NCBI GenBank assembly: GCA_002746975.1 | Contig: NVXE01000001.1 | Coordinates: 155,302-219,301, forward strand | Direction: 5' to 3' | From: Bacteroidota bacterium | Lineage (GTDB): Bacteria; Bacteroidota; Bacteroidia; Flavobacteriales_D; Sanyastnellaceae | DNA length: 64,000 nucleotides | Notes under the pieces: model-generated | Database searches by the model: none | What the model saw: only the letters and a program-made list of their open reading frames with translations | What the model was told of the DNA's origin: nothing | Shown here: positions 42,698 to 64,000 of the stretch, piece after piece | Numbering within the stretch: position 1 is the first letter of the stretch | How the letters are laid out: each line of letters opens with the position of its first letter | Program-made: the position numbers and the translations under genes

Positions 42698-42698
42698 C

Positions 42699-43889
42699 AT
42701 GTTATATCACCTATTTACATATCTAGATACAGCATACGATCTCCCCGGGGCCGGGCTTTTTAAATTCGTTACGTTTCGTGCGGCGATGAGTTTGATGACT
42801 TCATTGTTTATCGGTATTTCCTTCGGCAAAACAATTATAGAATGGCTCCAACTTAAGCAAGTGGGGGAAATCGTTAGAGACCTAGGGCTTCAAGGCCAAA
42901 TCGAGAAGAAGGGTACTCCTACTATGGGTGGAATCATCATTCTGACAGCGATTTTAGTCCCTACCCTACTATTCGCCGACCTAACAAATGTGTACACTCA
43001 CATGATGATTCTAGCCACTGTTTGGCTCGGAACTATCGGATTTATAGACGATTACATCAAGGTCCACAAGAAAAATAAGGATGGGCTTGCTGGTAAGTTT
43101 AAAATTGTAGGCCAAATCGGTGTGGGTATAATAATAGGTGCTATTATGATGTGGCATCCCGATGTTACCATTAAGGAACTTGGAGTAGATGGGGTTTGGA
43201 ATGAAGTGAGATCAACCATCACGACAATACCATTTATAAAGGGAAATAGTTTCGATTACGCATGGCTCGTAAATTGGGCCGTCGAAGATGTTTCGACATG
43301 GGTTTGGGTTGCATTTATACCTATTGTAATCATAATTGTAACAGCTGTTTCGAATGGCGCAAACCTCACAGATGGGTTAGACGGACTCGCTACAGGAACT
43401 AGCGCTATAATCGGAATGACTCTAGCTGTTTTGGCCTATGTAAGTTCGAATACAGTAATAGCGGAGTACCTCAACATTATGTACATCCCTGGGTCTGAAG
43501 AACTAGTGGTGTTTAGCGCTGCTTTTGTGGGGGCTTGTGTAGCATTTCTTTGGTATAATTCATTCCCCGCACAAGTGTTCATGGGAGATACTGGATCTCT
43601 AGCATTAGGAGGAATTATAGCCGCTTTTGCAATTGCAATAAGAAAGGAATTACTTATTCCTGTGTTATGTGGAATATTTCTTATCGAGAATTTGAGTGTC
43701 GTACTTCAAGTCGGTTGGTTTAAGTACACGAAGAAGAGGTTCGGAGAGGGGCGTAGAATATTCTTGATGGCTCCTCTGCATCATCATTACCAAAAGAAAA
43801 ACATGCACGAATCGAAAATCACAGCTCGATTTTGGATTGTGGGAATTCTACTCGCAGTGGTCACAATAGTAACTCTAAAAGTTCGATAG
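42699..43889 (+). CDS. mraY: phospho-N-acetylmuramoyl-pentapeptide transferase MraY
   Basis: The 396-residue integral membrane enzyme makes lipid I from UDP-MurNAc-pentapeptide and undecaprenyl phosphate. Family motifs visible are [21 protein letters not shown], the catalytic [23 protein letters not shown] and PLHHHYQKK. It has about ten membrane helices. It is longer than proteobacterial MraY (about 360) because of an insertion near residues 155-200, usual in Bacteroidota. Four bases separate it from murD. Confidence 0.97.
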
Positions 43890-43893
43890 TCAA

Positions 43894-45267: not shown

Positions 45268-45281
45268 GTCTAGGTAGCGCA

Positions 45282-46457
45282 ATGTCTAACTGGGCGAACA
45301 TAATTCGAGACAAAATCGAAGGAGATAAGGTCATCTGGATGGTGGCTCTAATTCTTAGTGTCTGCTCCATTATTTCCGTGTACGGTTCTGTTTCCTCACT
45401 TGTGTATAAAGCTCACGGCAAATCGTTGGGAATTTTATTTAAACAAAGTGCATTATTGGTTGTAGGGTTTGGTATTATGTATGCAATTCACAAAGTGCAT
45501 TATAAATATTTTGCTCGACTTGCAAATGTGTTATTAGTTTTTGCAATTATTGCTTTAGTTCTGACATTGATTTTCGGAGCTGACATAAATGAAGCTCGTC
45601 GATGGCTTAAAGTTCCATTTATAGGTTTAACCTTACAAACATCTGATTTAGCCAAAGTCGCGATAGTTGTATGGTTAGCAAAAGAACTTCATGTGAGGCG
45701 AGAAAAACTAGACGACTTCAAAGGGGAAGTAGTCCCCATGCTTATCAGAATATTAATCGTGTGCGGTTTAATTCTACCAGCCGATTTCTCTACTGCCGCA
45801 CTTCTAATTATGGTGTGTATAAGTATGCTATATATAGGCGGTGTACCATTCAAGGGTTTATTCTCAATTTTAGGTTTAATAATAGCATTTGGATTCACTA
45901 TTTATGGGGTGAGTAAAGCTGCGCCAAACCTGATACCGAGAAGCGAAACTTGGGTAAATCGCATAGAGCAATTTGTAGGTGGAAATGAAAACAATGAAAT
46001 TTCGAGTTCTGCCGATTACCAAATAGATCTCTCTCAGGTAGCTATCAACAGAGGAGGACTTCTACCATCAGGTCCAGGAACAGGCACGTGTAGGAATTTT
46101 CTTCCTCATCCGTATTCTGATATGATTTATGCGTTCATAATCGAAGAGTGGGGTTCTATTATAGGTGGGTTTGGATTACTACTTATGTACTTAATTCTGT
46201 TTTATAGGACTATTCACGCAGCTCGTAATTGCGATCGCCCTTTCGGGAGTTTTTTGGCAATGGGTTTGGGGCTATTGATAACTATTCAAGCGCTAATTAA
46301 TATGGGAGTTGCCGTTAGACTTCTTCCGACTACAGGTCAACCTCTACCATTAGTAAGCTTTGGTGGAACGTCCCTGATTTTTACTTTCATATCTATAGGA
46401 ATGATTTTGGCTGTGAGTAGATCGCCTTTTTTACCTAAAAACAAACAAGCGACTTAA
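45282..46457 (+). CDS. ftsW: septal peptidoglycan glycosyltransferase FtsW
   Basis: The 391-residue SEDS-family protein has about ten membrane helices. It has the SEDS signature near the C-terminus (RLLPTTGQPLPLVSFGGTSL), EARRWL in the second half of the membrane region, and a putative catalytic Asp in the large loop between helices 7 and 8. It polymerises septal glycan with FtsI. Its position between murD and murG is the classic dcw order. Confidence 0.95.
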   Translation: MSNWANIIRDKIEGDKVIWMVALILSVCSIISVYGSVSSLVYKAHGKSLGILFKQSALLVVGFGIMYAIHKVHYKYFARLANVLLVFAIIALVLTLIFGADINEARRWLKVPFIGLTLQTSDLAKVAIVVWLAKELHVRREKLDDFKGEVVPMLIRILIVCGLILPADFSTAALLIMVCISMLYIGGVPFKGLFSILGLIIAFGFTIYGVSKAAPNLIPRSETWVNRIEQFVGGNENNEISSSADYQIDLSQVAINRGGLLPSGPGTGTCRNFLPHPYSDMIYAFIIEEWGSIIGGFGLLLMYLILFYRTIHAARNCDRPFGSFLAMGLGLLITIQALINMGVAVRLLPTTGQPLPLVSFGGTSLIFTFISIGMILAVSRSPFLPKNKQAT

Positions 46458-46468
46458 AACACCCTATA

Positions 46469-47632
46469 GTGAAAATACAAAATGTACTTATTTCAGGTGG
46501 AGGAACAGGTGGTCACATCCACCCAGCTTTGGCAATAGCTGATGAAATAGCAAGACGAAATCCAAGTGTAAATATCAGGTTTGTAGGCGCGATAGGGCGT
46601 ATGGAAATGGAAAAAGTTCCAGCTGCAGGGTATGAAATCGAAGGGTTATGGATAACTGGAATTGAAAGGAAATTATTAAGCCTGAAAAATCTAAGTTTCA
46701 TCTTTAAGTTGATCTACAGTTTGATGAAATCAGGAAGACTTCTACGGAAATACAAACCTGAGATAGTTATCGGAGTGGGTGGTTTTGCTAGTGGGCCACT
46801 CCTTTATAGAGCTTCGAAAAAAGGAATTCCTACTCTTATTCAAGAACAAAACTCATTTCCCGGAATTACAAATAGAATTCTATCAAGTAAAGTAGATAAG
46901 ATTTGCGCAGGGTTTCCTGGTCTAGAAAGGTGGTTTCCTAAAGAACGAATTATCGAAACCGGAAACCCCTTACGCGATAGTGTGTTAAAGCTTTCGAGCA
47001 CAGAGCACACCCCCACGAACAATGAGGCTTCTTCACATTTCAAGCTAAGCAGCGAAAAACCTATCGTCTTTATAATGGGCGGGTCGCTTGGAGCTCTATC
47101 ATTAAATGAAGCAGTAAAAAATCTACTTAAATATTACTCAACTTTAGCGAATAGTGAAGACAGGGTACTCCCCTACTCAATAATTTGGCAATGTGGTTCA
47201 AGGTTTTTCGATGAGAACTCAAATTGGCTGAACGAGTTTAAAAATGACTACAAGGATATTGCGAAAGATGTAAAATGTTTGGGGTTTATAGATAGAATGG
47301 ATTTGGCATATGCCGCCTCAGACCTAATAGCAAGTAGAGCAGGCGCAATGTCCATATCTGAACTGGCCTTAGTCGCTAAACCTACCATTCTCATTCCATC
47401 ACCTCATGTATCTGAAGACCACCAAACAAAAAATGCTATCTCATTAGTCGATAGAGGTGGAGCTATTTTAATCAAAGATGATGAGGTGGGGCTTCAGTTA
47501 AGAGAAAAGTTAGAGGAATTATTATTTGATGAGGATTCTCGAGAGAAAATGAGCGTTGCATTAAAGTCAGCAGCTAGACCAAATGCTTCAATTGAAATTG
47601 TAGATGAAATAGAAAAACTTCTAGGAAAGTGA
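46469..47632 (+). CDS. murG: UDP-N-acetylglucosamine transferase MurG
   Basis: The 387-residue GT28 glycosyltransferase forms lipid II from lipid I. The N-terminal SGGGTGGHIHPALAIADE loop and the UDP-GlcNAc-binding region near SRAGAMSISELALVAKPTILIP are clear. The start is GTG at 46469 (MKIQNVLISGGGTGG), 11 bp after ftsW. The length exceeds the usual 355-365, mostly from an insertion around residues 178-195. murC follows after 1 bp. Confidence 0.95.
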   Translation: MKIQNVLISGGGTGGHIHPALAIADEIARRNPSVNIRFVGAIGRMEMEKVPAAGYEIEGLWITGIERKLLSLKNLSFIFKLIYSLMKSGRLLRKYKPEIVIGVGGFASGPLLYRASKKGIPTLIQEQNSFPGITNRILSSKVDKICAGFPGLERWFPKERIIETGNPLRDSVLKLSSTEHTPTNNEASSHFKLSSEKPIVFIMGGSLGALSLNEAVKNLLKYYSTLANSEDRVLPYSIIWQCGSRFFDENSNWLNEFKNDYKDIAKDVKCLGFIDRMDLAYAASDLIASRAGAMSISELALVAKPTILIPSPHVSEDHQTKNAISLVDRGGAILIKDDEVGLQLREKLEELLFDEDSREKMSVALKSAARPNASIEIVDEIEKLLGK

Positions 47633-47633
47633 A

Positions 47634-49013
47634 ATGAAGAATCCCCGAATAGCATACTTCTTAGGAGTCGGTGGGGCGGGAATGAGCGCTTTAGCACGTT
47701 ATTATTTAAAGGAGGGAGTTAAAGTCTATGGCTACGATAAAACCGAGACTGCATTAACTGAAACGTTAATCGAAGAGGGTGTTTCGATAACATACGATGA
47801 CTCTATACATAGCATCCCTAAAGAAATAGGTGTAGAAATAGGAGAACTCCTACTTGTAATTACACCTGCTATTCCTTCTAATCATCCTCACCTACTCGAA
47901 CTGATAAAAATAGGTCATACTCCTATAAAACGTGCCGAAATATTAGGGCGCATCACACAATCAAGACCTACTCTCGCAATTGCAGGAACCCACGGAAAAA
48001 CTACAACCACAGCGATTTTGGCACATATAATGGCTGGAACTTCTAAAGGTTGCAATGCATTTATCGGAGGAATAGCAGCATCGATAAAAAGCAATCTATA
48101 CTGGTCAGAGCATGCTGAATGGACTATTGTTGAAGCGGACGAGTTTGATAGAAGTTTTCACGCATTACACCCCACACATGCCGTTATTACCTCCTTAGAT
48201 CCAGATCATTTAGATATCTATGGAGATGAAAATAGCTTTATTAAAGCTTTCAAAATATTTAGTTCACAGGTAAAAGACATTGCAATAGTTCATCACGAAA
48301 TTTTTAATCACTTTAAGGACTTAAAAAACATAGAAACCTATGGAATAAAGGTAGGAGATAAAGAAATCACACACTTTCCTTCAGAAATTAAAAGAATAGA
48401 TGTTGGTTATGAATTCACATTAAACTTATCTAATGGAGAGGAAGTAGTAGAAAAGATCACTACTAACATGATGGGATTACACAACTTAGAAAACACTATT
48501 GCAGCTGCTGCTCTCGCACATAAAGCCGGTGTTTCATCAAATATCATCAAGGAAAGGATTGCAACATTTGAGGGTATTTATAGACGGTTTCAAATCCATA
48601 TTAAAACGGAAAAGCGTGTATATATTGACGACTACGCTCACCATCCTACTGAATTAAAAAAAACTATACAGGCAGTAAGAGAGCATTTTCCAGGCAGACA
48701 TCTTACTGTAATCTTTCAACCACATTTGTTTTCTAGGACTAAGGATCAAGAAGAGGGATTTTGCAAAGAGCTACGAAAAGTAGATAGATTGATTTTACTT
48801 CCGATTTATGCCGCAAGAGAAAATCCCATGCCTGGTTTCAATACACAATCTCTTTTTGAAAAGATATCGCACCCCCATGCAAATACATCGACGATAAATT
48901 CCATCTTCGATACCTTAAAGGCACATCCCGTGGACGTTCTTTTATCTGTAGGTGCAGGAGATATAGATTTACTCGTTTCCGACCTAAAGAAATGGACATC
49001 CATGGACGCTTAA
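47634..49013 (+). CDS. murC: UDP-MurNAc--L-alanine ligase MurC
   Basis: The 459-residue Mur ligase begins RIAYFLGVGGAGMSALA, the MurC N-terminal loop. Its ATP loop is AGTHGKTTTTA, with DEFDRSFHAL and DDYAHHPTELKKTI typical of MurC. It adds L-Ala to UDP-MurNAc, the first peptide step. Although its name comes first in the pathway, it sits late in the cluster, as in other bacteria. No ddl gene is fused or adjacent. ftsQ follows after 7 bp. Confidence 0.95.
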   Translation: MKNPRIAYFLGVGGAGMSALARYYLKEGVKVYGYDKTETALTETLIEEGVSITYDDSIHSIPKEIGVEIGELLLVITPAIPSNHPHLLELIKIGHTPIKRAEILGRITQSRPTLAIAGTHGKTTTTAILAHIMAGTSKGCNAFIGGIAASIKSNLYWSEHAEWTIVEADEFDRSFHALHPTHAVITSLDPDHLDIYGDENSFIKAFKIFSSQVKDIAIVHHEIFNHFKDLKNIETYGIKVGDKEITHFPSEIKRIDVGYEFTLNLSNGEEVVEKITTNMMGLHNLENTIAAAALAHKAGVSSNIIKERIATFEGIYRRFQIHIKTEKRVYIDDYAHHPTELKKTIQAVREHFPGRHLTVIFQPHLFSRTKDQEEGFCKELRKVDRLILLPIYAARENPMPGFNTQSLFEKISHPHANTSTINSIFDTLKAHPVDVLLSVGAGDIDLLVSDLKKWTSMDA

Positions 49014-49020
49014 AGCGATC

Positions 49021-49749
49021 ATGAAATCAACCACAGCAACAATCCTCAGCGTTTTCATCCTATTAGGATGCATACTCGTATTAGTAGGTTTTGCATCAGT
49101 TGATAACGAAGGAAAAAGGATTAACTCTATAGAAATAATTATTTCTGACGATGCAAATAGTCCTTTTTTAACCGAGTTAAGAGTTAGAGAACACCTCGAT
49201 ACTTTCGGAGCTATCATAGGAAAACTTGAAAAAAACGTTTCTTTACCTGAATTACATCACCACCTGATGTTAATTCCTTCCGTTAGAAAAGCCCATGTTT
49301 ATCCTACTTTAAATGGCCAAATTCATATTGAATTAACTCAACGCGAACCTCACGCAAGAATTCATACAGGAAAGGGTAGTGATTTTTACATAGATGAGCG
49401 CGGTAAAGTCATGGAGCTTGATCACCTGTACACAGCAAGAGTTCCTGTCATACATGCCGAGAGCTTAGAAGCAGCCCAGCCGGCAATTAGTTTTATTGAA
49501 AAGACGCGCAATGACAGGTTTTGGGATGCTCTCATAGACCAAGTCATAGTTAACTCTAAGGGGGAGCTTGAACTCATACCTCGCATAGGCTCAAGAATCT
49601 TCATAGGCAATGACCAAAATCCTGAAGATCAACGTCGAAATCTTATAACTTTCTATAGAGCACAAGTTAAAACCGGTAACTTAAAAAATTACTCGCGTAT
49701 CGATTTGAGCTATAAAGACCAAGTAATTGCAAAACGTTATACTTACTAA
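49021..49749 (+). CDS. ftsQ: cell division protein FtsQ
   Basis: The 242-residue bitopic protein has a short cytoplasmic tail, one membrane helix (about 7-25, ILSVFILLGCILVLVGFAS), and a periplasmic part with a weak POTRA-like region (about 40-110) and beta domain (IRIDLSYKDQVIAKRY at the end). The sequence diverges from proteobacterial FtsQ, but position between murC and ftsA and topology are decisive. FtsQ recruits FtsL/B and FtsWI to the septum. Confidence 0.88.
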   Translation: MKSTTATILSVFILLGCILVLVGFASVDNEGKRINSIEIIISDDANSPFLTELRVREHLDTFGAIIGKLEKNVSLPELHHHLMLIPSVRKAHVYPTLNGQIHIELTQREPHARIHTGKGSDFYIDERGKVMELDHLYTARVPVIHAESLEAAQPAISFIEKTRNDRFWDALIDQVIVNSKGELELIPRIGSRIFIGNDQNPEDQRRNLITFYRAQVKTGNLKNYSRIDLSYKDQVIAKRYTY

Positions 49750-49771
49750 TCCAATATCTAAAACCTAAGTA

Positions 49772-51064
49772 ATGGAAAACGAAACACAGAACCACGAACC
49801 TGAAATATTAGTAGGATTAGATATCGGTACTACGAAAATAGCTTGCTTTGTGGGACAGCGCAACGAGCATGGGAAAATCGAAATTCTAGGATACGGAAAA
49901 AGTGATTCCGTAGGAGTAACGAGAGGTGTAGTATCTAATATCGAGAGAACTGTATCTTCAATCAAGTTAGCCGTTAAGGCCGCAGAAGAAAATTCTGGGA
50001 TTGAGATTAAGGTTGTTAACGTAGGTATTGCTGGACAGCATATAAAGAGCTTACAACACAGAGGTATGATTACGCGAGAGAATTTAGATGATGAAATTCG
50101 CCAATCGGATATTAATGCCCTTATTGAAGATATGCGTCGTTTGGTTATGCCTCCTGGAGCACAGATTTTACATGTACTTCCTCAAGAGTTTACTGTAGAT
50201 AGCGAACCTGGAATAAAAGATCCTGTGGGAATGTCGGGGGTAAGATTAGAAGCGAACTTTCACATTATTACCGGGGATATCGCAGCTGCTAGAAATATCT
50301 ACAAATGTATTTCAAAAGCCGGGCTAGAAATAGACCAACTCGTTTTAGAACCTCTTGCCTCATCTTCATCCGTATTAACAGAAGAGGAAAAAGAGGCTGG
50401 TATTGCTCTAGTTGACATAGGTGGAGGAACTACTGATATTGCTATTTTCCAAGATGGAATAATTCGTCATACAGCCGTTATACCATTCGGGGGCAAGGTC
50501 ATTAGCTCGGATATTAGTAAAGGATGTAACATTATGAGCAAGCAAGCTGAAATTCTTAAGTGTAAATTTGGATCTGCTTTAGCACAAGAGATGAGTACAA
50601 ATGAACTTGTCTGTATCCCAGGTCTTACTGGTCGTAAACCTAAAGAAATCTCGCTTCGAAATCTCGCTAACATTATCGAAGCTCGTATGGTAGAGATTAT
50701 TGAACACGTACATTATGAAATCAAAGCTTCTGGTTTAGGTGATCAATTAATCGGTGGAATTGTAGTCACTGGAGGAGGAAGTCAACTAAGACACATCACT
50801 CAACTATTTCAATACCATACTGGTTTGGACTGTCGAGTAGGTTACCCAAATGAACATTTACAAGAATCGCCAACAGAAACAAATATCCCTTCATTCTCAA
50901 CTGGAGTAGGACTTGTTATTAGAGGCTCCGAAGAAAGTGTTAGAAATAATAATGATACTCAGAGTGCGCCTACTAGAAGAAAAGAAAAAAGAAACTTGAT
51001 GGACGACTTTAAAAAGAACATTCGAGAATGGTTCGAGAAAGAAGAAGAAGAAAATCAGCATTAG
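49772..51064 (+). CDS. ftsA: cell division protein FtsA
   Basis: The 430-residue actin-like ATPase has the phosphate loops VGLDIGTTKIACFVG and VDIGGGTTDIAIF and the adenosine motif VVTGGGSQL. Its C-terminal end (MDDFKKNIREWFEKEEEE) is a predicted amphipathic helix that attaches FtsA, and through it FtsZ, to the membrane. The charged linker before it (about 390-410) is typical. ftsZ starts 24 bp downstream. Confidence 0.96.
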   Translation: MENETQNHEPEILVGLDIGTTKIACFVGQRNEHGKIEILGYGKSDSVGVTRGVVSNIERTVSSIKLAVKAAEENSGIEIKVVNVGIAGQHIKSLQHRGMITRENLDDEIRQSDINALIEDMRRLVMPPGAQILHVLPQEFTVDSEPGIKDPVGMSGVRLEANFHIITGDIAAARNIYKCISKAGLEIDQLVLEPLASSSSVLTEEEKEAGIALVDIGGGTTDIAIFQDGIIRHTAVIPFGGKVISSDISKGCNIMSKQAEILKCKFGSALAQEMSTNELVCIPGLTGRKPKEISLRNLANIIEARMVEIIEHVHYEIKASGLGDQLIGGIVVTGGGSQLRHITQLFQYHTGLDCRVGYPNEHLQESPTETNIPSFSTGVGLVIRGSEESVRNNNDTQSAPTRRKEKRNLMDDFKKNIREWFEKEEEENQH

Positions 51065-51088
51065 TCACCACCTTAAAAAAAAATCACT

Positions 51089-52675
51089 ATGGAATTTGCA
51101 CTACCTAAATCATCTAACAATCCGATAAAAGTAATCGGAGTTGGAGGCGGCGGATCTAATGCTGTCAACACAATGTTCGAACAAGGAATTAAAGGTGTGG
51201 ACTTTATCGTCTGCAATACAGACGCTCAAGCTCTTGATGTCAGTCCTGTTCCTTTAAAAGTTCAGCTGGGCTCAACATTAACTGCAGGGCAGGGTGCTGG
51301 ATCTATTCCTGAAGTGGGAATGAACGCAGCAATAGAAAACCTTGAGGATCTAACAAACCTACTAGGAGCTGATACAAAAATGGTGTTCGTAACTGCCGGT
51401 ATGGGAGGAGGAACGGGCACTGGAGCAGGACCTGTAATTGCAAAAGCTTGCCGCGATTTGGGCATCTTAACAGTGGGTATCGTAACAATTCCATTTAAGT
51501 TTGAAGGAAAAAAGCGATCTACTCAAGCAGACAGCGGTCTTAAAAACATGCGTGATGCAGTAGATACTTTACTAGTAATCCGTAATGACAAACTTCGTGA
51601 ATTATACGGAAATCAAACATTGCGGAAAGCATTCAAAAATGCTGACCAAGTACTTTGTATTGCAGCAAAAGGTATAGCGGAAGTAATCACACGGATAGGA
51701 GAAATAAACGTTGATATGAACGACGTCAACACTGTGATGAGACAAAGCGGGAATGCCATAATGGGGTCTGGGATGGCGTCAGGTGAAGGTCGATCTAAAA
51801 AGGCTGTTATTACAGCACTTGAAAGCCCACTATTGAACGATAATGACATTACTGGAGCTAAGCATGTTCTATTAAACATTACAGTTGGAAGTGAAGACAT
51901 CCTAATGGATGAAATAATGGAAATTACTGATTACATACAAGATGCTGCAGGACAAAACGCTGAGGTAATTTGGGGGTACGCTTTAGATGAAGAATTAGAA
52001 GAGGAAATTTGCATTACTGTAATAGCTACTGGATTTGAAGCTCATGAGGTTCAGACAGGATCTGAGCCAGTAGAGAAGAAGGTTATAACTTATGATTTGG
52101 GAGATGAATCACAAGAAATAACAACTCCTGTAAATAGAGCAATAAACCCAACAAATACAAGCGAGGAACAAATAGAAAATAAGGAAGTAGGAAATGACGA
52201 ACCCTACATAGTAAGTTCTAGTGAACAGGATTACTCCGACTTATTTAATACTTCTCCAGAAACAGCTGAGCCAGAGGCGTTAAAAGATAATGCGGAAGGT
52301 GAAATCGTCATCCACAATCTTGATGATGCACCCTTAGATACCACCCCTACTAACTCGTTTAGTTCACCTTCGAACAATGACGCTTTCTTGAATTTAGATA
52401 TCGAAAATAAAAACAAGAATGCCTTCGCAGAACGTCAAAGGCAAACTAAGAGGGCTTTGAATGACGTAAATATGAAACTTATGCTTCCTGGAAGGATTTC
52501 TGATTACGAAAACGAACCAGCTTACAAGCGTAGAGATATAATTTTAGACGAGGTCACACATTCGTCTAAGTCAAGTGTAAGTAGGTTTTCTATAAACGAA
52601 GAAATTGATGAAAATGGAGAGCGTAGAATCGAACTACGAGACAATAATCCATTTCTTCACGATAACGTAGATTAA
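51089..52675 (+). CDS. ftsZ: cell division GTPase FtsZ
   Basis: The 528-residue tubulin homologue has GVGGGGSNAVNTM, the GTP-binding signature GGGTGTGAGPV (about 107-117) and the T7-loop region NVDMNDVNTVM, which completes the neighbouring subunit's GTPase site. After about residue 330 there is a long, disordered, acidic linker, and the protein ends in a conserved tail LRDNNPFLHDNVD of the Bacteroidota type, which binds FtsA and other partners. Its stop shares one base with the yqeY start. Confidence 0.97.
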   Translation: MEFALPKSSNNPIKVIGVGGGGSNAVNTMFEQGIKGVDFIVCNTDAQALDVSPVPLKVQLGSTLTAGQGAGSIPEVGMNAAIENLEDLTNLLGADTKMVFVTAGMGGGTGTGAGPVIAKACRDLGILTVGIVTIPFKFEGKKRSTQADSGLKNMRDAVDTLLVIRNDKLRELYGNQTLRKAFKNADQVLCIAAKGIAEVITRIGEINVDMNDVNTVMRQSGNAIMGSGMASGEGRSKKAVITALESPLLNDNDITGAKHVLLNITVGSEDILMDEIMEITDYIQDAAGQNAEVIWGYALDEELEEEICITVIATGFEAHEVQTGSEPVEKKVITYDLGDESQEITTPVNRAINPTNTSEEQIENKEVGNDEPYIVSSSEQDYSDLFNTSPETAEPEALKDNAEGEIVIHNLDDAPLDTTPTNSFSSPSNNDAFLNLDIENKNKNAFAERQRQTKRALNDVNMKLMLPGRISDYENEPAYKRRDIILDEVTHSSKSSVSRFSINEEIDENGERRIELRDNNPFLHDNVD

Positions 52676-55089: not shown

Positions 55090-58000
55090 TTAGCAAATAG
55101 TACCGAATGCACCTAGGAAGATAAGAAGGTCACCAGTAGTAATCGATCCATCACCGTTCAAGTCCGCAGGACAAGGGTTAGCGATGTTGAAAGTACAAGT
55201 TCCGTTATCTGTAATCGCAGCAGCGTCATAGTTAGCCGCATCTGGGTAAGTACATCCCTCACATCCAGTGAAGATACAAGTAGTGAAATCAGGTAGGTTA
55301 ACAGCTGCGTTGTAGTTACAAGCACAAGAGATGTCACAACCAACAACACACTGATCACCAGTACCTACGTTGAAAGTTACAGACTCATCAGCTAGACCAC
55401 CAACTAGACCACCGAATGCTCCTAATATGTTCCAGCTCATCTCAGATGCCCAAGAAACACCGACAACATCGATAGTGTAACATCCATCAGCTAGACAGTA
55501 AGAGTCAGTAGCATTTGAACCTACATCGATAGTACCTGTTCCGATTACAGTTCCATCAACAGAAGATAGAGTGTAGTAACCTCCATTCCATCCGTCTCCG
55601 AAAGAATCGAACATCTGAACATCTAGACAGTTACTGTAACAGCAAGTACCATCATCGATAGTAGAAAGTGCATCATAGTTACAAGCTAACATATCTGTAC
55701 AACCAGCACATGTTACGTACTCACAAGAGCTATCTTCTACAGTAGCAAGAGGATCGTAGTTACAAGCAATCATGTCCATACAACCACATACAGCACCACC
55801 TACAGAGATAGTCTGAGAATCAGGAGCTCCACCAGCTACAATAATAGTAGAATCTTGTAGAGTAATGTTCCAAGAAACCTCAGAAGCCCAATCACCAGGA
55901 GTGATGTCGATGTTGTAACATCCAGGCTCTAGACATATCATATCGAAACCGAACTCAGGTCCAGCGAAGTTATCGTTGTCAACAGAGTACTGAGCGTTAT
56001 CAAGGTCACCAGCAGTAATAAGGTTACCAGCAAGGTCAGAGATAGTGTAACCAGCTCCGTTCCATCCGTCTCCGAATGCGTCAATCATGTTCATTTGAAC
56101 AGCGACCCCAGTACCAGTAGTACAAACACAAGACCAGAAGTCACATGTAGGAGTACTAACGTTAGCTAATGGATCGTAGTTACAAGCTGCAGGATTCATA
56201 CATCCTTCAACAACAGTAGCACAGTTAAATGTAAGATCGAATGTTCCAGCAGTTCCACCTACTAAGATGTAGTAAAGTGTACCAGGTGTAGAAACGAATT
56301 CAAAGTTTACATCATCAGAATCGAATAATGAACAAGCACCTGTTCCATCACTACCAGCAGCAGAGTCGAAACATGTAAAGTCACCAGCTGTGTAAATAGG
56401 ATCCATTGGGTATGGAGCAACTGTAAGAAGACCAGTACCAAGAGCTCCAGAAGGTAATTCAAAGAATCCTATAACATCACCAAGACCGTTAGTGAATGTA
56501 GCGGCACCACCGTTCCATCCGTCTCCAAATGCGTCAATCATGTTTAATGTGTAAACTGCAGGAGGTAAACAAAGAGACCCCGTAACAGGAGCGGCTCCAG
56601 AAGCAACACTTACACCTAAAGAGTCAACAAGATCCCAAGTAATCTCAGAATCCCAAGAACCACCACCAACACTGAAGTTAACTGTGACAAGAGGGTTACC
56701 AAGAGAGTCAACGCCACAAGCGTCAACAGGAGGAACAGCAATACCACCACCACCACAAGGGACAGCCGCTGTATAGATGTTAATCTTAGAATCAATAGCA
56801 GACCCACAAGTACTTATGTTATGTAATTGTCCGTCACCCACGAATGAGTACCAAACACCAGCTCCAGGAGCAGTCTCACATCCTAGGACTCCAATTGGAG
56901 AACCTGTGATAGTAGCACCACCTGTAGAACCAGTAGTTACAGTGTTACAAGTTAGAGCAACAGCAGTATCACAAATATCGTTCGCTGGAACAATACCTGT
57001 AAAGTCACAAGTACCATCGTCTTGGTTAGCTTGTGGGTTGAAGTTATTCGCTGTAGCATCTGTACATCCTAAGATGATACCTGTTGTAGTGAACTCAAAG
57101 TCTCCACAAGTAGCCGGGTCAGAAGTATAGATTAAGAAGTAGTAATCTACGTTAGGAATAAGTTGTGGTAAGAATGCCTCAACAGAACCAGCACAAGTAC
57201 CAGTAAACTGACAACCTACGAATCCAGTAATACCTGCACATTGGTTACCTTCCATCATAACGAATCCAAGAACATCGTTAGAAATGTTAGTGATGTTAAA
57301 TAAGAATGTGTTGTAGTTAGCAGAGTTAAATGTGAACCAAACTCCGTAAGCAGTACCGTTTCCAGCCCATCCTAATGGCATTGACTCAGCAGTAGCACAA
57401 CAAGTAGAACCAGTAAATGTCACACCTGTAACCTGTGCGATAGCACCAGAACAGTCATCGTTAGATGGAGTAACACCACAATCAACACAAGTAACAGAAA
57501 GAACGAAGTCGTTTCCGTTAGTTGTTGCAGAGAACTCACTAACAAGAATGAAGTAATCAGTTCCAGTTACAGCATTGAATACTGCAGTTGATAAGAAACC
57601 AGTAGCACAACCGTCATCGTTTCCAGAAACAGCAACTAATGAACCATCTAGAGCTTGTGTGTAAATATGAAGCTGAGTGTCAGCTGTGTAATCAGTTAAA
57701 GCGTCATTTGAAGGAGTATCACATGTACTAACAATTATCTGCTGGTCAGCAGCAGCGTTAAATGTGTACCAAACTCCAGTAGATGCAACAGCAGCGTTAC
57801 TGAACTCAGTACCGATTAAGTTTTGGTCATCAGTAGAGTAAAGTAATGTACCAGAAACGAAAGCTCCACAGAATACTGCCTCAGCGTTAGCTAACTGATC
57901 GTTAACCGGTGGCTCTTGACAAGTACCGTCATCAACAGATGCCGAGATGTTGTAGTTAAGAGCAGAAGGACTTGTACAACCAGAGAACGCACATGTACCA

Positions 58001-59736
58001 GTTAGAGTAAAGTCTAATGGGTAAATAGTACCTGCACCAGTAGTTCCGTAGTTAGTTCCGAACTGGTCTGTCATAGAAATACTAACCTCTGAAGGGGAAG
58101 AACCTAAACTTACTTCTACTGTGTAACATCCAGGAGCTAAACATACTAAGTCAGAACCTAAAGAAAGGCCATCACCAGAAAAAGCTGTGTCAAGGTCACC
58201 AGAAAGCTCAAGAGCTCCAGTTGCCTGATTGTAAACGTAGTAAACAGCTCCATTCCAACCGTCTCCGAAAGAGTCAGCCATAGTTAGAGTAAGAACGAAT
58301 GTACCAGGAGCACAGTAAACACAAAGGCCACTATCAATAGTAGCGTTAGGGTCATAGTTAGCAGCAGTTGCGTCAATACAACCTACGCAAGAGTAATCAC
58401 AAAGACCATCATCAAATGCAGCAAGAGCGTCGTAGTTACAAGCACCCATGTCTGTACAACCCATTGTACAAGCACCACCGTTGAAATCTAAGTAATCAGT
58501 ACCTATAGAACCACCATCACCTACAGCAGCAGTGTCAATATCACCTGAGAAAAGATTAGTTCCATCATAAGCGTCGAATGAGTATGTACCACCATTCCAA
58601 CCATCTCCGAAAGAGTCAGTCATATCAATAGTATAACATCCAGCAGCTAAACAAAGAGTGTAAGAACCTGCTCCACCAGTAGCAACTACTGAATCAGCTA
58701 ACATTAGAGAGAATCCTATTTCACCATCCCAAGTACCACCACCTACAGTAAGTGTTCCAGCGAATACCCCAGTACAGTATGCACAGCATCCAGTACAAGC
58801 GATAGTAGCTAGAGCGTCGTAGTTAATTGCCGTAATATCCATACAACCTATGCAAGAGTAATCACAAGATGCGTTATCTAAAGTAGCAAGAGCATCGTAG
58901 TTACAAGCAGTCGGGTCGATACAACCAGCACATGATAAGTAATCACATGAACCGTCATTAACGTTAGCAGCAGGGTTGAAGTTACAAGACAAAGCGTCGT
59001 TACAACCAGCAACTATACAAGCAGGGTCTGTAGAGAAGAATACCTCTCCTTCACCGCTACCTAAAGCGATAACAGCTCCACCTACAACAACTTCCCAAGT
59101 TCCCTCAGAAGCGAATGAAGGTATAACAATGTTACCTGTGTAACATCCTGGCGCAAGACAGAAGTCCATAGTCATAAAGCCGCCATCAAGGAACTCATAG
59201 AATGTTCCGAAGATGGTTAATCCACCAGCTACACCACCGAAAGTCCATCCATCACCGAATGAATCGTATAGGTTTATCGTTACGAAATCATCTAGGCAAC
59301 AAGTACCATCGTCGATAGTCGCAGATGGATTGAAGTTAGACGCCAGAGGGTCTGTACATCCAGGGACATCAGCAGAAACAGTAATAACTAAAGAACCCGA
59401 AGCTCCAGCAGTTAATTCAAATAGCCCGATGCTCACACCTCCTATACTAAAGGAAGCAGTAGCACCATTCCATCCATCTCCAAACGAGTCAGAACCGATG
59501 AATGTGTAGTCTCCCGCGGCTAAACACCACTGACCAGCAATACCGGCTCCACCAGTTAGTACTGAATTACCGAGTGCGTCGTTAAGAGTCCATGAAATCT
59601 CTGCTGGGTAAGCCCCCGCAGTAATAGCGTAATCTACCGCTATTTCGCCAGGTGCGCATTGCGACCAGGCTCCAGTTGAAAAAAGAAGTGCAAACGCCGC
59701 AAAAGCAGTCGTTAACTTCGTGTACGAATTGAACAT
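55090..59736 (-). CDS. giant Cys-rich secreted repeat protein with EF-hand-like C-terminus
   Basis: The protein is about 1548 residues from the ATG at 59736, chosen because it starts the signal peptide MFNSYTKLTTAFAAFALLF (cleavage before QCAPG); the frame is open to 59763. About 13 modules of the type GCTDxxACNYDxxATxDDGTC alternate with seven beta modules containing DSFGDGWNG or a variant. A middle region of about 250 residues (GVWYTFNAA, DYFILVSEF) has two domains of a C-terminal-protease-associated type. It ends CPADLNGDGSITTGDLLIFL plus seven residues and a final Cys, an EF-hand/dockerin-like motif, with no T9SS CTD seen. It is probably a surface or matrix protein; the export signal at its end is undefined. 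Promoter-like TTG-N18-TTAACTTTTG precedes it. Confidence 0.85.
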   Translation of the reverse strand: MFNSYTKLTTAFAAFALLFSTGAWSQCAPGEIAVDYAITAGAYPAEISWTLNDALGNSVLTGGAGIAGQWCLAAGDYTFIGSDSFGDGWNGATASFSIGGVSIGLFELTAGASGSLVITVSADVPGCTDPLASNFNPSATIDDGTCCLDDFVTINLYDSFGDGWTFGGVAGGLTIFGTFYEFLDGGFMTMDFCLAPGCYTGNIVIPSFASEGTWEVVVGGAVIALGSGEGEVFFSTDPACIVAGCNDALSCNFNPAANVNDGSCDYLSCAGCIDPTACNYDALATLDNASCDYSCIGCMDITAINYDALATIACTGCCAYCTGVFAGTLTVGGGTWDGEIGFSLMLADSVVATGGAGSYTLCLAAGCYTIDMTDSFGDGWNGGTYSFDAYDGTNLFSGDIDTAAVGDGGSIGTDYLDFNGGACTMGCTDMGACNYDALAAFDDGLCDYSCVGCIDATAANYDPNATIDSGLCVYCAPGTFVLTLTMADSFGDGWNGAVYYVYNQATGALELSGDLDTAFSGDGLSLGSDLVCLAPGCYTVEVSLGSSPSEVSISMTDQFGTNYGTTGAGTIYPLDFTLTGTCAFSGCTSPSALNYNISASVDDGTCQEPPVNDQLANAEAVFCGAFVSGTLLYSTDDQNLIGTEFSNAAVASTGVWYTFNAAADQQIIVSTCDTPSNDALTDYTADTQLHIYTQALDGSLVAVSGNDDGCATGFLSTAVFNAVTGTDYFILVSEFSATTNGNDFVLSVTCVDCGVTPSNDDCSGAIAQVTGVTFTGSTCCATAESMPLGWAGNGTAYGVWFTFNSANYNTFLFNITNISNDVLGFVMMEGNQCAGITGFVGCQFTGTCAGSVEAFLPQLIPNVDYYFLIYTSDPATCGDFEFTTTGIILGCTDATANNFNPQANQDDGTCDFTGIVPANDICDTAVALTCNTVTTGSTGGATITGSPIGVLGCETAPGAGVWYSFVGDGQLHNISTCGSAIDSKINIYTAAVPCGGGGIAVPPVDACGVDSLGNPLVTVNFSVGGGSWDSEITWDLVDSLGVSVASGAAPVTGSLCLPPAVYTLNMIDAFGDGWNGGAATFTNGLGDVIGFFELPSGALGTGLLTVAPYPMDPIYTAGDFTCFDSAAGSDGTGACSLFDSDDVNFEFVSTPGTLYYILVGGTAGTFDLTFNCATVVEGCMNPAACNYDPLANVSTPTCDFWSCVCTTGTGVAVQMNMIDAFGDGWNGAGYTISDLAGNLITAGDLDNAQYSVDNDNFAGPEFGFDMICLEPGCYNIDITPGDWASEVSWNITLQDSTIIVAGGAPDSQTISVGGAVCGCMDMIACNYDPLATVEDSSCEYVTCAGCTDMLACNYDALSTIDDGTCCYSNCLDVQMFDSFGDGWNGGYYTLSSVDGTVIGTGTIDVGSNATDSYCLADGCYTIDVVGVSWASEMSWNILGAFGGLVGGLADESVTFNVGTGDQCVVGCDISCACNYNAAVNLPDFTTCIFTGCEGCTYPDAANYDAAAITDNGTCTFNIANPCPADLNGDGSITTGDLLIFLGAFGTIC

Positions 59737-59773
59737 ATGAACAGGTTTTGGTTTGAAATCCATTAATTATTTA

Positions 59774-60040: not shown

Positions 60041-60526
60041 TTACCACATAGAAACGTGCCAACTTTCAGAGAATGGAGTTACTAGTCGTGTTCTAGCGTC
60101 CTGAAGCGTAGATACAGTGGTGTCAAGGACTTGCGTGTCGTTGGTGATTAAATTCGCCTTCCTTTTCGCCCAAAAATCGTGGAGCTTTTCTGTTACCCAC
60201 TCACCATCGAAGTTAGAAAGGTCGGAATTAGAAGGACGATGTAAAACCCAGCTCCTATTAAACCAATCCACACCGATAGATTCTCCGTCTTTTTTAATAA
60301 AATTGTTGAGTGAATCTAATGAGCATCCTGAAGCAGAGGATGATGACTCGTCAACCGATATAAGTAAAACACGGTTAGAAATAAGAAGGGCGTCAGCTGT
60401 GAGCGCACTTCCATGAGCCGACCATGAATCTAAAAAGGTGGTAAGTCTAGATAGTAGTTGAGTTGATGACGAATCGCTGAGTGAAGAGTCTGCAGTAAAG
60501 AAGAAAACTCGAGATGACTCAGACAT
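60041..60526 (-). CDS. conserved Bacteroidota protein (often mislabelled ABC transporter ATPase)
   Basis: The protein of 161 residues (ATG at 60526; a longer start at 60550 adds 8 poorly conserved residues) has the pattern MSESSRVFFFTADSSLSD, FLDSWSAHGSALTA, NRVLLISVDESS and ASGCSLDSLNNFI. This matches a small soluble family found through Bacteroidota that databases often call ABC transporter ATPase, although no Walker A or B motif exists. The invariant W.AHG, DE and SGCS hint at an enzymatic or binding site. It is the last gene of the exosortase operon, 32 bp after its neighbour. Function unknown. Confidence 0.8.
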   Translation of the reverse strand: MSESSRVFFFTADSSLSDSSSTQLLSRLTTFLDSWSAHGSALTADALLISNRVLLISVDESSSSASGCSLDSLNNFIKKDGESIGVDWFNRSWVLHRPSNSDLSNFDGEWVTEKLHDFWAKRKANLITNDTQVLDTTVSTLQDARTRLVTPFSESWHVSMW

Positions 60527-60558
60527 ATTTGGGAATATTATAAATGACATTGAGTACC

Positions 60559-61086
60559 TTATATAGAAGTGTATCGTTTTAATGAAAATTTAAAACGAGG
60601 AAGAGGAGATTTAAGAAATCTCGGAATGTAAACGAGGATGAGGGAAGGTAGTGGGGATTGTAGAAATCCTAATAATTCACGAGAAACAGCATAAGATGGA
60701 GAAGCTGAGGTTTGGCTTAAAAGGAAGAAAATAGACATAGGAATAGAAACTCCTATATACAAGAGTAAAAGCCAAGGCAAAGCTGAGGGAGCTCCAGAAG
60801 GAGAGGTTACTTTAACGAAAACTGCGTCCAACATAAAGAATACAAGCAATATTATCGCTGATAAAGCGCTCTTTGCTAGGACTAAATCGCTTTTAGAAAA
60901 TAAATGTATGGTGAAGGGAATAGAGGTTGAGTTAAAAATCGCTGACCTCTCCTGAGGTGTTGAGTCATAGAAACCAGAATAAGAATCGGCAAATGATCTG
61001 TATTCGTTGAGAGCAACTTTAGCCGACTCTTGATAATACCCGAAGACAAGCATCACAATTAGGATGATAAGGGGTATAGCTCTCAT
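60559..61086 (-). CDS. exosortase F system-associated membrane protein
   Basis: The 175-residue protein has about four membrane helices: an N-terminal one (ILIVMLVFGYYQES), one near residues 69-90 (SALSAIILLVFFML), and two later (PWLLLLYIGVSIPMSIFFLL; a last one less clear). It ends in a basic tail (RFLKSPLPRFKFSLKRY). Its length, topology and 4-bp overlap with the exosortase gene fit the partner protein that accompanies XrtF in Flavobacteria. The role of this partner is not known; it may shape the substrate path or stabilise the protease. Confidence 0.8.
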   Translation of the reverse strand: MRAIPLIILIVMLVFGYYQESAKVALNEYRSFADSYSGFYDSTPQERSAIFNSTSIPFTIHLFSKSDLVLAKSALSAIILLVFFMLDAVFVKVTSPSGAPSALPWLLLLYIGVSIPMSIFFLLSQTSASPSYAVSRELLGFLQSPLPSLILVYIPRFLKSPLPRFKFSLKRYTSI

Positions 61087-61598
61087 TTGGATTTAGAAAT
61101 AGGTGACAAATATGTGGCCCAAACATACCACAACCCGAAAACTACTCCATATACAAGAATGGTAAATGTATAGTCGTGATTAAACTCAAGCCAATTTGGA
61201 TATTTCGATTGAATTGCTGCAAGGGAAATTACTCTCAACACGTTAACAGTGTGAATTACAATTAAACCTAGCAAAATGAATAAGACCTTTTTCTTTTTTC
61301 CTCCGGGATAAAAAGCTATAAAAATTGAAAATAAAGCAAATAAAGCAAGGCCGTCACAAGGAGCTCCGATTTCGACTCCAGGCGATCCTGACACCCCTAA
61401 CCTATTTATAAAATTTGAAGGCTGAGGGAATGTTCCCGTTTTAAATCCCAACATCTCCAGTCCAGACTCCGAAACATTTACCATGCTAGAAATGAGAACT
61501 TCGTCAACGTTCGTTAAAGGCTTAATTGCAAACTCATAAATCACATACCATGATAGATATGCTACAAAACAGCTGACGAAGAATTTAAATACCCTCAC
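61083..61598 (-). CDS. xrtF: exosortase family protein XrtF
   Basis: The 171-residue integral membrane protein has about five helices. It carries the exosortase catalytic triad pattern: Cys81 in APCDGLALF, Arg122 in NVLRVISLA and His141 in FNHDYTF. Exosortases are cysteine transpeptidase/proteases that recognise short C-terminal sorting signals and process the protein, often in exopolysaccharide loci. Its size and partner gene match the F subtype of Flavobacteria. The gene lies 4 bp after the small Cys-rich protein gene, its probable substrate, and overlaps the partner gene by 4 bp. Confidence 0.9.
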   Translation of the reverse strand: MRVFKFFVSCFVAYLSWYVIYEFAIKPLTNVDEVLISSMVNVSESGLEMLGFKTGTFPQPSNFINRLGVSGSPGVEIGAPCDGLALFALFSIFIAFYPGGKKKKVLFILLGLIVIHTVNVLRVISLAAIQSKYPNWLEFNHDYTFTILVYGVVFGLWYVWATYLSPISKSK

Positions 61599-61602
61599 TT
61601 TT

Positions 61603-61950
61603 TCAAGCTTCTTTAGCTAGAAGTTTATTCTCGTCCCTAAGCTTGTAAAACGCAAAAAATGCACCAGCTATCATTAAAAAGGGAATACCGTCAGAAATAG
61701 GGATTGCTAAACATGGGGCTGAACCATTATAATTCGTACAGTCAGGATCTTCTACACAGGCGTTATTTGCATAAATCCCACAACAACCCGATTGGAGGCA
61801 GTTAATAAAAATATAGTTTGTACCGTCTGGGTCACAACAAAGACCGTCGGGTTCAACTTGTGCTGATATTACAAATGGAGAGAGGGCGAACAATCCTAAA
61901 AAGATGATGGAAACGAATAAGTTTCTTGATATGTAATTGTAGTTTGTCAT
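61603..61950 (-). CDS. small Cys-rich secreted protein with sorting-signal-like C-terminus
   Basis: The 115-residue protein has a signal peptide (residues 1-30, core FVSIIFLGLFALSPFVISA). A 50-residue extracellular part follows with eight Cys (38, 39, 51, 56, 57, 65, 71, 80), and then a tripartite C-terminus: PISDG at 84-88, a hydrophobic helix of about 12 residues (IPFLMIAGAFFAF) and a basic patch with K103 and R105. That arrangement is the plan of PEP-CTERM-type exosortase signals; similar P-I-D/G motifs are known in Bacteroidota. It is the first gene of the exosortase operon, so I propose it as the dedicated XrtF substrate. The link is by inference. Confidence 0.75.
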   Translation of the reverse strand: MTNYNYISRNLFVSIIFLGLFALSPFVISAQVEPDGLCCDPDGTNYIFINCLQSGCCGIYANNACVEDPDCTNYNGSAPCLAIPISDGIPFLMIAGAFFAFYKLRDENKLLAKEA

Positions 61951-61965
61951 GACGGATTACCTTTG
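61937..61965 (+). promoter_or_regulatory. promoter of the Wzc-like kinase gene
   Basis: TACCTTTG at 61958-61965 is an exact -7 box, with TTG at 61937-61939, 18 bp upstream. Transcription should begin just before the ATG at 61976. The -33 part lies in the first codons of the divergent exosortase operon. Confidence 0.6.
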
Positions 61966-61975
61966 GACTTCAAAG

Positions 61976-64000
61976 ATGAACAATTCTAGACAAGATATAA
62001 TATCTGCCAAGGATATTCGACCATATGTAAAACTTTTAGGTAAAAGTGGATGGTTAATGATCTTGCTGGCTATCATAGGGTACGGAATAGGTCGCATAGT
62101 AACTCACAGACAAGTTGATAAATATAACGCTACTGCTGAGATATTATTGACACACGGTGGTGGCATTAACGACTTACAAGGCATGGGGAATGTCAGGGCT
62201 ACTTCAATGTGGGGTAATTATCTAGATGAAACTAGAAACCAAATTCGGATTTTAAACTCCTACGATTTAATAGGGAGGAGTATTGATAAAATTAATGACC
62301 CACTCGATTTATTTCTTGTTGGAAGACTTAAAGAATTACCTGTCGAGGGGTTTTCTGTATTAAATATTACAGTTCAAGAAGAAGCGTTTTCTTCAAATAT
62401 GCTTGGAAGATCTTTAAATATCTTTATTCAAAGTCCTACAACCTATAAGATTTCGTTTGAAACTAATGAAGGAGGGGTAGTAGAGGTAGATGCGCAATTC
62501 GGCGACCTAGTTACTGCACATGGTTTAAACATGCTTGTGAATCTTTCTCCTGAAATAAAACGTAATCCAGCTAGAATTGAGGCTGCAAAAGCGCAACATT
62601 TCAGAATTCGTGTTTATAACAGAAATAATCGCATTTATCAATACCGATCTCAATTAACTGCTGGAAATATCGAAATGACCAGCATAGTTACTCTGACTTG
62701 TAGCGACGTACTACCTACAAGAGCTAAAAGATTTCTAGATACTCTAGCTGCTACATATATAGACTATACAGCCGAAGCAAGACACGCCAGCAATCTTCAG
62801 GCAGAGAAATACATTGACAACCAGCTTGTTGAAATTGAGTCAATGACTGATAGTTTGGCACAGCTAGTTGACTTTTATAAGGATCAGAAACACATTATAG
62901 ACCTTTCAAAAGAACAAGCCCAATATTTCTCAATGTTGGTGGATCTTGAACAGCAGAGACGTGAGCTGGACTTACAGATTGAATCACTCAATAGTCTTAA
63001 TTCGTATTTACTCTCATCGTCTTCAAACACTGCCTTGCCCCCGACGTCGTTTCTGTTTGTGGAAGACAAGTTGATGTTAGACCAAATGGGTGAATTGTTC
63101 GCTCTACAGGCTCGCAGATCTTCGCTTCTTTTAGATGTTAAGGAGGGTTCGTCGGTAATTCGTAGGGTTGACTCTACGATGTCGCAGATACGGACAGGAA
63201 TAAAGCAGTATCTCAGTGATTTCAGGTCTGCGTTAAATGGAAGAAGGAATGATTTGACCGTTGAGATTCGACTGTTAGAAGTAAGACTCGCTAGCTTACC
63301 TCAAACTCAACGTGATATTCTCGCCATGGAAAGGAAACTTGCCGTAAACGAGAAGTTATCGTTGTTTTTGCTCGAACAAAAAGCTACGACTATTATAGCA
63401 AGAGCAAATATTACTCCCGAAGCCTCGCTTATAGAAAGGGCGAGGTATGGAGGCCTCGTAGGGCCTAATAAAGAAAAGACAATTCTAACGTACATACTTG
63501 CTGGTTTCGTGCTAGGTCTAATTCTTGCTTTAATTCGTTTGTTCTTCTTCGCGCGAATTGAATCCACTGGGGAATTACGAGAAATTGCAAATTTCCCAGT
63601 AATAGGAGGTATTCCTTTTCACAAAGGAATTAAGGAAGATCCTCTCGCCGTAAGAGCTGATAACAGGTCCGCTGTAACAGAGGCTTTTAGAGCTCTAAGA
63701 ACGAACCTGCAATACCTTCTAGCAAAAGAGGGGGCTAATGTTATTCTAGTTTCTTCACTACACCCTTCTGAGGGAAAATCTTTTGTAAGCTCTAACTTGG
63801 CGTCAATTTTAGCTAAAGCTGGAAAAAAGGTCGCTATGATAGATTTAGACCTTCATAAACCTAGAGTTCACTTATATTTTGGTATTAAAAACAAAGCCGG
63901 AACTTCTAATTTACTTGTAGGAAAAGCCACGATTTCTGACGTAAAAAATACAGGTCCATACCCTTCGTTAGACATAATTTCTGCAGGCCCTATTCCGCCG
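61976..64000 (+). CDS. Wzc-type polysaccharide co-polymerase/tyrosine autokinase, 3' end beyond window
   Basis: The frame starts at ATG 61976 (MNNSRQDIISAKD) and remains open to 64000, giving 675 codons with no stop. A first membrane helix lies at about 28-44 (MILLAIIGYGIGR), followed by a Wzz-like domain, a long coiled-coil region, a GNVR segment (LPQTQRDILAMERKL, about 441) and a second membrane helix (about 502-525). The cytoplasmic BY-kinase begins with Walker A HPSEGKSF (about 593-600) and A' MIDLDLHKP (about 620). Wzc proteins control polymerisation and export of capsule or exopolysaccharide through Tyr phosphorylation. The C-terminal Tyr cluster lies outside. It runs divergently from the exosortase operon across 25 bp. 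Confidence 0.88.
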   Translation, partial: MNNSRQDIISAKDIRPYVKLLGKSGWLMILLAIIGYGIGRIVTHRQVDKYNATAEILLTHGGGINDLQGMGNVRATSMWGNYLDETRNQIRILNSYDLIGRSIDKINDPLDLFLVGRLKELPVEGFSVLNITVQEEAFSSNMLGRSLNIFIQSPTTYKISFETNEGGVVEVDAQFGDLVTAHGLNMLVNLSPEIKRNPARIEAAKAQHFRIRVYNRNNRIYQYRSQLTAGNIEMTSIVTLTCSDVLPTRAKRFLDTLAATYIDYTAEARHASNLQAEKYIDNQLVEIESMTDSLAQLVDFYKDQKHIIDLSKEQAQYFSMLVDLEQQRRELDLQIESLNSLNSYLLSSSSNTALPPTSFLFVEDKLMLDQMGELFALQARRSSLLLDVKEGSSVIRRVDSTMSQIRTGIKQYLSDFRSALNGRRNDLTVEIRLLEVRLASLPQTQRDILAMERKLAVNEKLSLFLLEQKATTIIARANITPEASLIERARYGGLVGPNKEKTILTYILAGFVLGLILALIRLFFFARIESTGELREIANFPVIGGIPFHKGIKEDPLAVRADNRSAVTEAFRALRTNLQYLLAKEGANVILVSSLHPSEGKSFVSSNLASILAKAGKKVAMIDLDLHKPRVHLYFGIKNKAGTSNLLVGKATISDVKNTGPYPSLDIISAGPIPP

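Follow-up and report, generated by a model that had tools for sequence, protein, structure and literature searches.

Known sorting systems

Among the systems closest to the one described here, the PEP-CTERM/EpsH pair has, in the portions of PMC3237569 and PMC11980579 on which we draw, a membrane cysteine protease, targets with a tripartite tail and a link to exopolysaccharide. The cassette discussed below is alike in all three respects, but the PEP-CTERM signal is built on a Pro-Glu-Pro motif, and a species with one such tail often has twenty or more. One-enzyme/one-target systems have been called 'dedicated', a term applied to sortase, exosortase and rhombosortase systems alike (PMC3237569, in the sections used here). 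The best-studied exosortase of the Bacteroidota is XrtF. In Flavobacterium johnsoniae, deletion of xrtF or of its partner gene cut colonisation of sand and surfaces as well as biofilm formation, and the substrates of XrtF were left by the authors to future work (PMC10936215, in the part available to us).

Three NCBIfam families bear directly on the present locus: exosortase X (XrtX, NF046081), the XrtX-associated protein (NF046082) and PID-CTERM (NF046080). For exosortase X (XrtX), exosortase Y and PID-CTERM, no relevant paper was found in the open-access literature. The wording 'exosortase X...' does occur there, where it means XrtA and XrtF, which are other enzymes. An earlier note on this DNA had proposed a new small sorting system; with models for the enzyme, its partner and the tail already in existence, that novelty is not supported.

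Layout of the cassette and its surroundings

The window (the whole stretch of DNA that was analysed, 64,000 nucleotides) comes from a genome assembly that is about 95% complete. Its listing of open reading frames (ORFs) places four tightly packed genes on the minus strand at 60041-61950 (Table 1). Genes 1 and 2 are 4 nt apart, genes 2 and 3 overlap by 4 nt and genes 3 and 4 are separated by 8 nt, so the nearly gapless arrangement described in the earlier note is borne out, coordinates included.

Table 1. Features of the cassette and of the adjoining gene, in window coordinates
Feature	Position	Strand	Remarks
Gene 1, candidate dedicated substrate	61603..61950	-	115 aa; signal peptide, eight-Cys mature region, PISDG-helix-charged tail; divergent, PID-CTERM-like
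Gene 1, N-terminal signal peptide, residues 1-30	61861..61950	-	read by eye; hydrophobic residues 6-29; probable cleavage after ISA
Gene 1, eight-Cys region, residues 38-80	61711..61839	-	Cys 38, 39, 51, 56, 57, 65, 71, 80
Gene 1, PISDG motif, residues 84-88	61687..61701	-	likely recognition or cleavage region
Gene 1, hydrophobic C-terminal segment, residues 89-102	61645..61686	-	from sequence
Gene 2, exosortase X (XrtX)	61083..61598	-	171 aa, GTG start; NF046081 over cut-off
Gene 2, XrtX residues (codons)	Cys81 61356-61358; Arg122 61233-61235; His141 61176-61178	-	invariant in alignments
Gene 3, XrtX-associated membrane protein (divergent)	60559..61086	-	175 aa; NF046082 below cut-off; assigned by position and co-occurrence
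Gene 4, widespread Flavobacteriales protein	60041..60550	-	169 aa; in the operon without being tied to the exosortase system
Divergent polysaccharide co-polymerase / tyrosine autokinase	61949..64000, extends past the window	+	807 aa in all

Transcribed away from the cassette is a gene for a polysaccharide co-polymerase/tyrosine autokinase. At full length, in locus L137, this protein scores 164 bits against TIGR01007, the model for polysaccharide biosynthesis tyrosine autokinase (cut-off 108), and its matches to Wzz and GNVR are weak and below cut-off. The predicted start of the ORF overlaps the start of gene 1; the autokinase of genome G108 begins with MNNSRQD, at the equivalent of window position 61976, and this is the probable true start here as well, leaving 25 nt to gene 1. 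Relatives of the autokinase lie upstream of xrtX on the opposite strand at 40 of 60 loci sampled from the family, 38 of them no more than 500 bases from the frame of xrtX, and the 20 loci that lack one include the 11 from genus g18 and several truncated by a contig edge. So frequent a neighbour points to polysaccharide export, and the gene suggests that the product of the cassette works with exopolysaccharide export. Glycosyltransferase-like and acetyltransferase-like genes, recognised by eye, follow on the same contig at a distance of about 11-18 kb. Exosortases have been tied to exopolysaccharide, in the portion of PMC11980579 drawn on here, and this neighbourhood agrees.

Two other regions of the window deserve mention. 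At 55090-59763 is a gene for a 1557-aa, Cys-rich, repetitive protein of secreted appearance, in which the units DSFGDGWNGG and GC.D..A.NY...A..DDGTC recur and whose C-terminal end is dockerin-like (CPADLNGDGSITTGDLLIFLGAFGTIC); no Pfam family matches it above cut-off. A cluster for cell division and cell-wall synthesis (a penicillin-binding protein, mur genes, ftsA and ftsZ, all by eye) occupies 39084-52675.

Pairing of enzyme and tail across relatives

An XrtX match (E <= 0.001) is present in 89 of the 114 genomes of the family, 47 of them over the cut-off of the model. From 93 matched XrtX places, 60 loci with surroundings were taken, representing 59 genomes with our own excluded; the places left out are mostly lower-scoring or fragments. 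At 46 of the 60 loci, xrtX has a PID-CTERM-type ORF immediately upstream, 45 of these being found by rule and one, at L078, by eye, since the open frame of xrtX begins early there and the distance rule missed the adjacent ORF. The tail profile applied to these loci was built without our own genus, and 10 of the 60 loci had given it a row. The earlier note would have taken absence of the small gene from other loci of the exosortase as a refutation, and these counts speak against such an absence. A second set of 80 loci, largely from the same genomes, gives 54 (53 by rule and L203 by eye), some of the misses being loci with no upstream sequence at all; the 80 named relatives are all metagenome assemblies, in which absences may be gaps.

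The 14 loci without an adjacent PID-CTERM ORF fall mostly in one genus. Eleven are from g18, and at L099 the contig starts at xrtX. The remaining two, L080 and L091 (genomes G043 and G079), have ample upstream sequence, yet the adjacent PID-CTERM gene is absent; across these two genomes, tail profile A1 gives nothing convincing (best E 0.40 and 3.78, respectively). Profile A1 likewise finds none in G053, which is 99% complete (best E 0.33). The curated PID model matches in 12 of the 22 g18 genomes, in every case on a different contig from XrtX, and finds nothing in the other 10; with the tail proteins, where found, on separate contigs, the cassette appears to be split in this genus. At ten g18 loci (L082, L092, L103, L104, L107, L110, L111, L113, L116 and L117), the gene in front of xrtX encodes a protein with KSDLYRY at its C-terminal end, which we take to be adenosylhomocysteinase.

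Co-occurrence was also counted at the level of the order. Among 299 genomes, 111 have a match to the curated PID-CTERM model (E <= 0.01) and 138 have one to XrtX (E <= 0.001); 109 have both, 2 PID-CTERM only, 29 XrtX only and 159 neither (Fisher p about 3e-51, uncorrected for relatedness). In one of the two genomes with PID-CTERM only, G140, the match lies in a 1434-aa frame and is probably due to chance. The tail in our own genome falls below the threshold of the PID model, which places that genome in the XrtX-only class here. The order of substrate, XrtX and partner is seen both in our genome and in relatives.

One enzyme to one target is the usual state and not a law, as two PID matches are found in 7 of the 111 genomes. 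In G074, the second match lies within an unrelated 399-residue protein, and in G190 neither match is near XrtX. Two different Cys-rich proteins with PIDSG tails, L138 (G050:C66:1119-1172) and L139 (G050:C19:5436-5495), occur in genome G050 together with a single XrtX, so that an enzyme may sometimes have several targets. In genome G202, which belongs to a different family within the order, XrtX has a PID-CTERM gene for a neighbour, and a further one, Pro/Gly-rich, lies elsewhere beside response-regulator-like genes (L154, 4177-4419, and L155, 4015-4260). Genome G003 has two XrtX places, L118 (G003:C10) and L119 (G003:C19); at the second of these, matches to the divergent kinase gene are spread over three separate frames, so that this gene looks broken.

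One enzyme and one putative target in the genome and genus

A broad exosortase/archaeosortase model (E <= 0.1) detects a single exosortase in our own genome. Profile A1, which includes our own sequence, finds one tail only, that of the gene 1 protein, even at E <= 10, and the curated PID model likewise picks out the gene 1 protein and nothing else (15.6 bits). The one-protease, one-substrate cassette proposed in the earlier note thus appears to hold, a single enzyme and a single putative target standing side by side as in the dedicated systems described in the consulted sections of PMC3237569. Our genome also encodes 77 type IX secretion tails (E <= 0.01). Type IX secretion is a separate, non-exosortase pathway, and it is only through these tails that many unrelated proteins share a different common signal, a possibility that had been raised against the pairing.

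Within the genus, a matching tail is found in 4 of 14 genomes, our own included (G000, G105, G110 and G108), the first three being rows of A1 and G108 not. XrtX is detected in G000, G105 and G110. In G108, 68 bases follow the tail match (10985-11086 of 11154) before the substrate contig stops, and a different contig starts within the associated gene, so XrtX probably lies in a gap of the assembly. All four proteins have eight cysteines, and the cassette pattern in the genus is more than chance.

That XrtX is kept in G043, G053 and G079, and in the 10 g18 genomes without a PID match, could mean that the small protein is a side or pilot substrate and that the enzyme mainly serves the polysaccharide machinery, or proteins without a recognisable PID tail; the adjoining polysaccharide tyrosine autokinase would suit this reading. 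Set against it are the strong co-occurrence and adjacency of PID-CTERM and the lack of any other tail in our own genome at E <= 10, and assembly gaps may explain some of the absences, as in G108. We therefore regard it as distinctly unlikely, and prefer the dedicated pairing of XrtX with the gene 1 protein.

The candidate substrate

The gene 1 protein was described earlier as a small, secreted, eight-Cys protein, and the description agrees with the sequence: eight cysteines were counted, and by eye the hydrophobic N-terminus resembles a signal peptide that ends ...ISA|Q. It had also been said to end in PISDG, a hydrophobic helix and a basic patch. The motif and the helix are as described; the basic patch is weak, the segment after the hydrophobic stretch (KLRDENKLLAKEA) having four Lys/Arg amid acidic residues, where several relatives have RRRK or RRRR. 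The protein thus has the PID-CTERM layout of motif, hydrophobic helix, basic tail and signal peptide, with a weak tail and a signal peptide read by eye.

Scores for the tail are low. Against NF046080, the protein reaches 13.9 bits when searched in the window and 15.6 bits when searched in the genome (cut-off 26), which leaves it outside formal membership. The tail scores 56 bits with profile A1, its own sequence being among the rows, and 17.6 bits with the profile built without our own genus. The sequence of gene 1 makes by itself a modest argument for a sorting tail, and the case is carried by position and co-occurrence.

By eye, the orthologues in G105, G110 and G108 have eight cysteines each, as in our own genome, and the mature protein of the genus would comprise about 55 residues. 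The motif drifts among relatives: it is PISDG in our genome and in G108, PIEDG in G105 and G110 and PIDGG in many relatives, with PLDGG as a further variant, and the tail proteins of g18 have PIDSG in 12 of the 13 sequences read and PIDSE in one.

If the small protein were an ordinary membrane-anchored protein lying beside the exosortase by chance, and no substrate at all, its score under the cut-off of the curated PID-CTERM model and the weakness of its basic tail would be no surprise. The same position and tail type recur in 46 of 60 loci, though, and within the genus the tails were found in no genomes other than the three with XrtX and G108, where the remaining cassette is on broken contigs. 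A chance neighbour is very improbable on these grounds.

The enzyme and its partner

Gene 2 scores 178.1 bits against NF046081 (NCBIfam cut-off 170), which makes it a formal member of the exosortase X family. The earlier note had named it exosortase F, and gene 2 does match the XrtF model TIGR04128 at E 3.5e-23, but an XrtF system of the F. johnsoniae type is scarcely credible, since this match (82.7 bits) is below its cut-off of 90 while that to XrtX exceeds 170, and gene 3 matched the XrtX-associated model and no XrtF-associated model at E <= 1. The name XrtF was rejected on score. With an enzyme over the XrtX cut-off and weak matches for partner and tail, the system is of the XrtX type, and its partner and tail have diverged.

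Conservation of Cys, Arg and His defines the exosortase-archaeosortase family. The three residues named earlier, Cys81, Arg122 and His141, are indeed invariant, both in 57 aligned sequences and in a set of 26, each set including our own. An AlphaFold2 model of XrtX is mostly helical and confident (pLDDT 92.5). Searches with XrtX gave no match among PDB sequences at E <= 1 and, with the model, none in Foldseek at E <= 0.001; the best comparison with a solved structure has Z 5.0 over 86 residues, with an rmsd of 4.9, and is uninformative.

Gene 3 reaches 22.5 bits against NF046082, well under the cut-off of 75. Though no formal member of that family, it is a diverged XrtX partner by position and co-occurrence. 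The associated gene is downstream of xrtX at 58 of the 60 loci, and the associated protein is found in 137 of the 299 genomes of the order, 134 with XrtX and 3 without, while 4 genomes have XrtX and lack it.

A widespread protein in the same operon

Gene 4 had been counted among the members of the cassette. It lies downstream of xrtX at 46 of the 60 loci, but its family is found in 267 of the 299 genomes of the order, compared with 138 for XrtX, and in 194 of the 203 better genomes. It is also present in 7 of the 11 members of the genus in which XrtX was not detected, one of the seven (G108) being a contig gap. Gene 4 is therefore not specific to the exosortase system, and was rejected as a component of it.

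The protein has no predicted membrane segments. It has no match in Pfam or NCBIfam at E <= 1, its 49 homologues give matches there to single members only, and nothing among PDB sequences is better than E 0.9. The structure model is confident (pLDDT 94.2), with no Foldseek match at E <= 0.001 and no clear fold match; the best has Z 6.2 over 91 residues, with an rmsd of 2.7, and the matches listed include many ferredoxin-like designs and MscS-type channels. Given the empty Foldseek result, the low best Z and the mixed list, no function is claimed from structure. Nine residues of the family (F39, W43, H46, G47, G75, C76, D79, R99 and W164) are invariant in 49 sequences.

A proposed course of action

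A dedicated XrtX cassette, in which XrtX cuts the gene 1 protein with the help of its partner and with a link to polysaccharide, is in our judgement a probable reading of these sequence comparisons. We infer the following course. The 115-aa protein would be exported by the Sec route, its C-terminal helix keeping it anchored in the inner membrane. XrtX would cut at or near PISDG, with Cys81 as the nucleophile and Arg122 and His141 helping, and the XrtX-associated membrane protein would assist XrtX. The small eight-Cys protein would be released, or passed on to an acceptor, for which a lipid or polysaccharide intermediate is the likeliest choice, and the product may act in or with exported polysaccharide.

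A bolder version, which we think unlikely if worth keeping in view, is that XrtX joins the small protein covalently to the polysaccharide or lipid carrier of the neighbouring co-polymerase/tyrosine-kinase machinery, giving one peptide tag per exopolysaccharide and no sorting of surface proteins.

Comparison with known systems

The XrtX cassette, made up of a single enzyme, its likely target and a partner, offers the simplest setting in which to learn how such an exosortase acts on its substrate, and the drift of its motif through PIDGG, PIDSG, PLDGG, PIEDG and PISDG supplies natural variants for the study of specificity. Several described systems resemble it. Rhombosortase with GlyGly-CTERM likewise pairs its sorting enzyme with a lone target whose gene lies alongside, but the enzyme is a rhomboid serine protease, of a family unrelated to exosortase (PMC3237569, in the sections drawn on). 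The MrtJ/JDVT-CTERM system also joins a sorting enzyme and one target in a two-gene neighbourhood; it differs in that the enzyme is a glutamic protease of the CPBP family and the signal is another one (PMC11980579, in the part used here). XrtF of F. johnsoniae, from the same phylum, is also an exosortase accompanied by an associated protein (PMC10936215, in the portion available). Judged by score, it belongs to another exosortase family.

The nearest likeness is to the system defined by NF046081, NF046082 and NF046080, with which the cassette shares the order of substrate, XrtX and partner and an enzyme over the cut-off. It differs from that system in that partner and substrate are under their cut-offs here, PISDG takes the place of PIDGG, and eight cysteines stand in a mature region that in many relatives is a short Pro/Gly-rich stretch with about two. 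The cassette is thus a divergent addition to a known type of sorting system, real and mostly ordinary.
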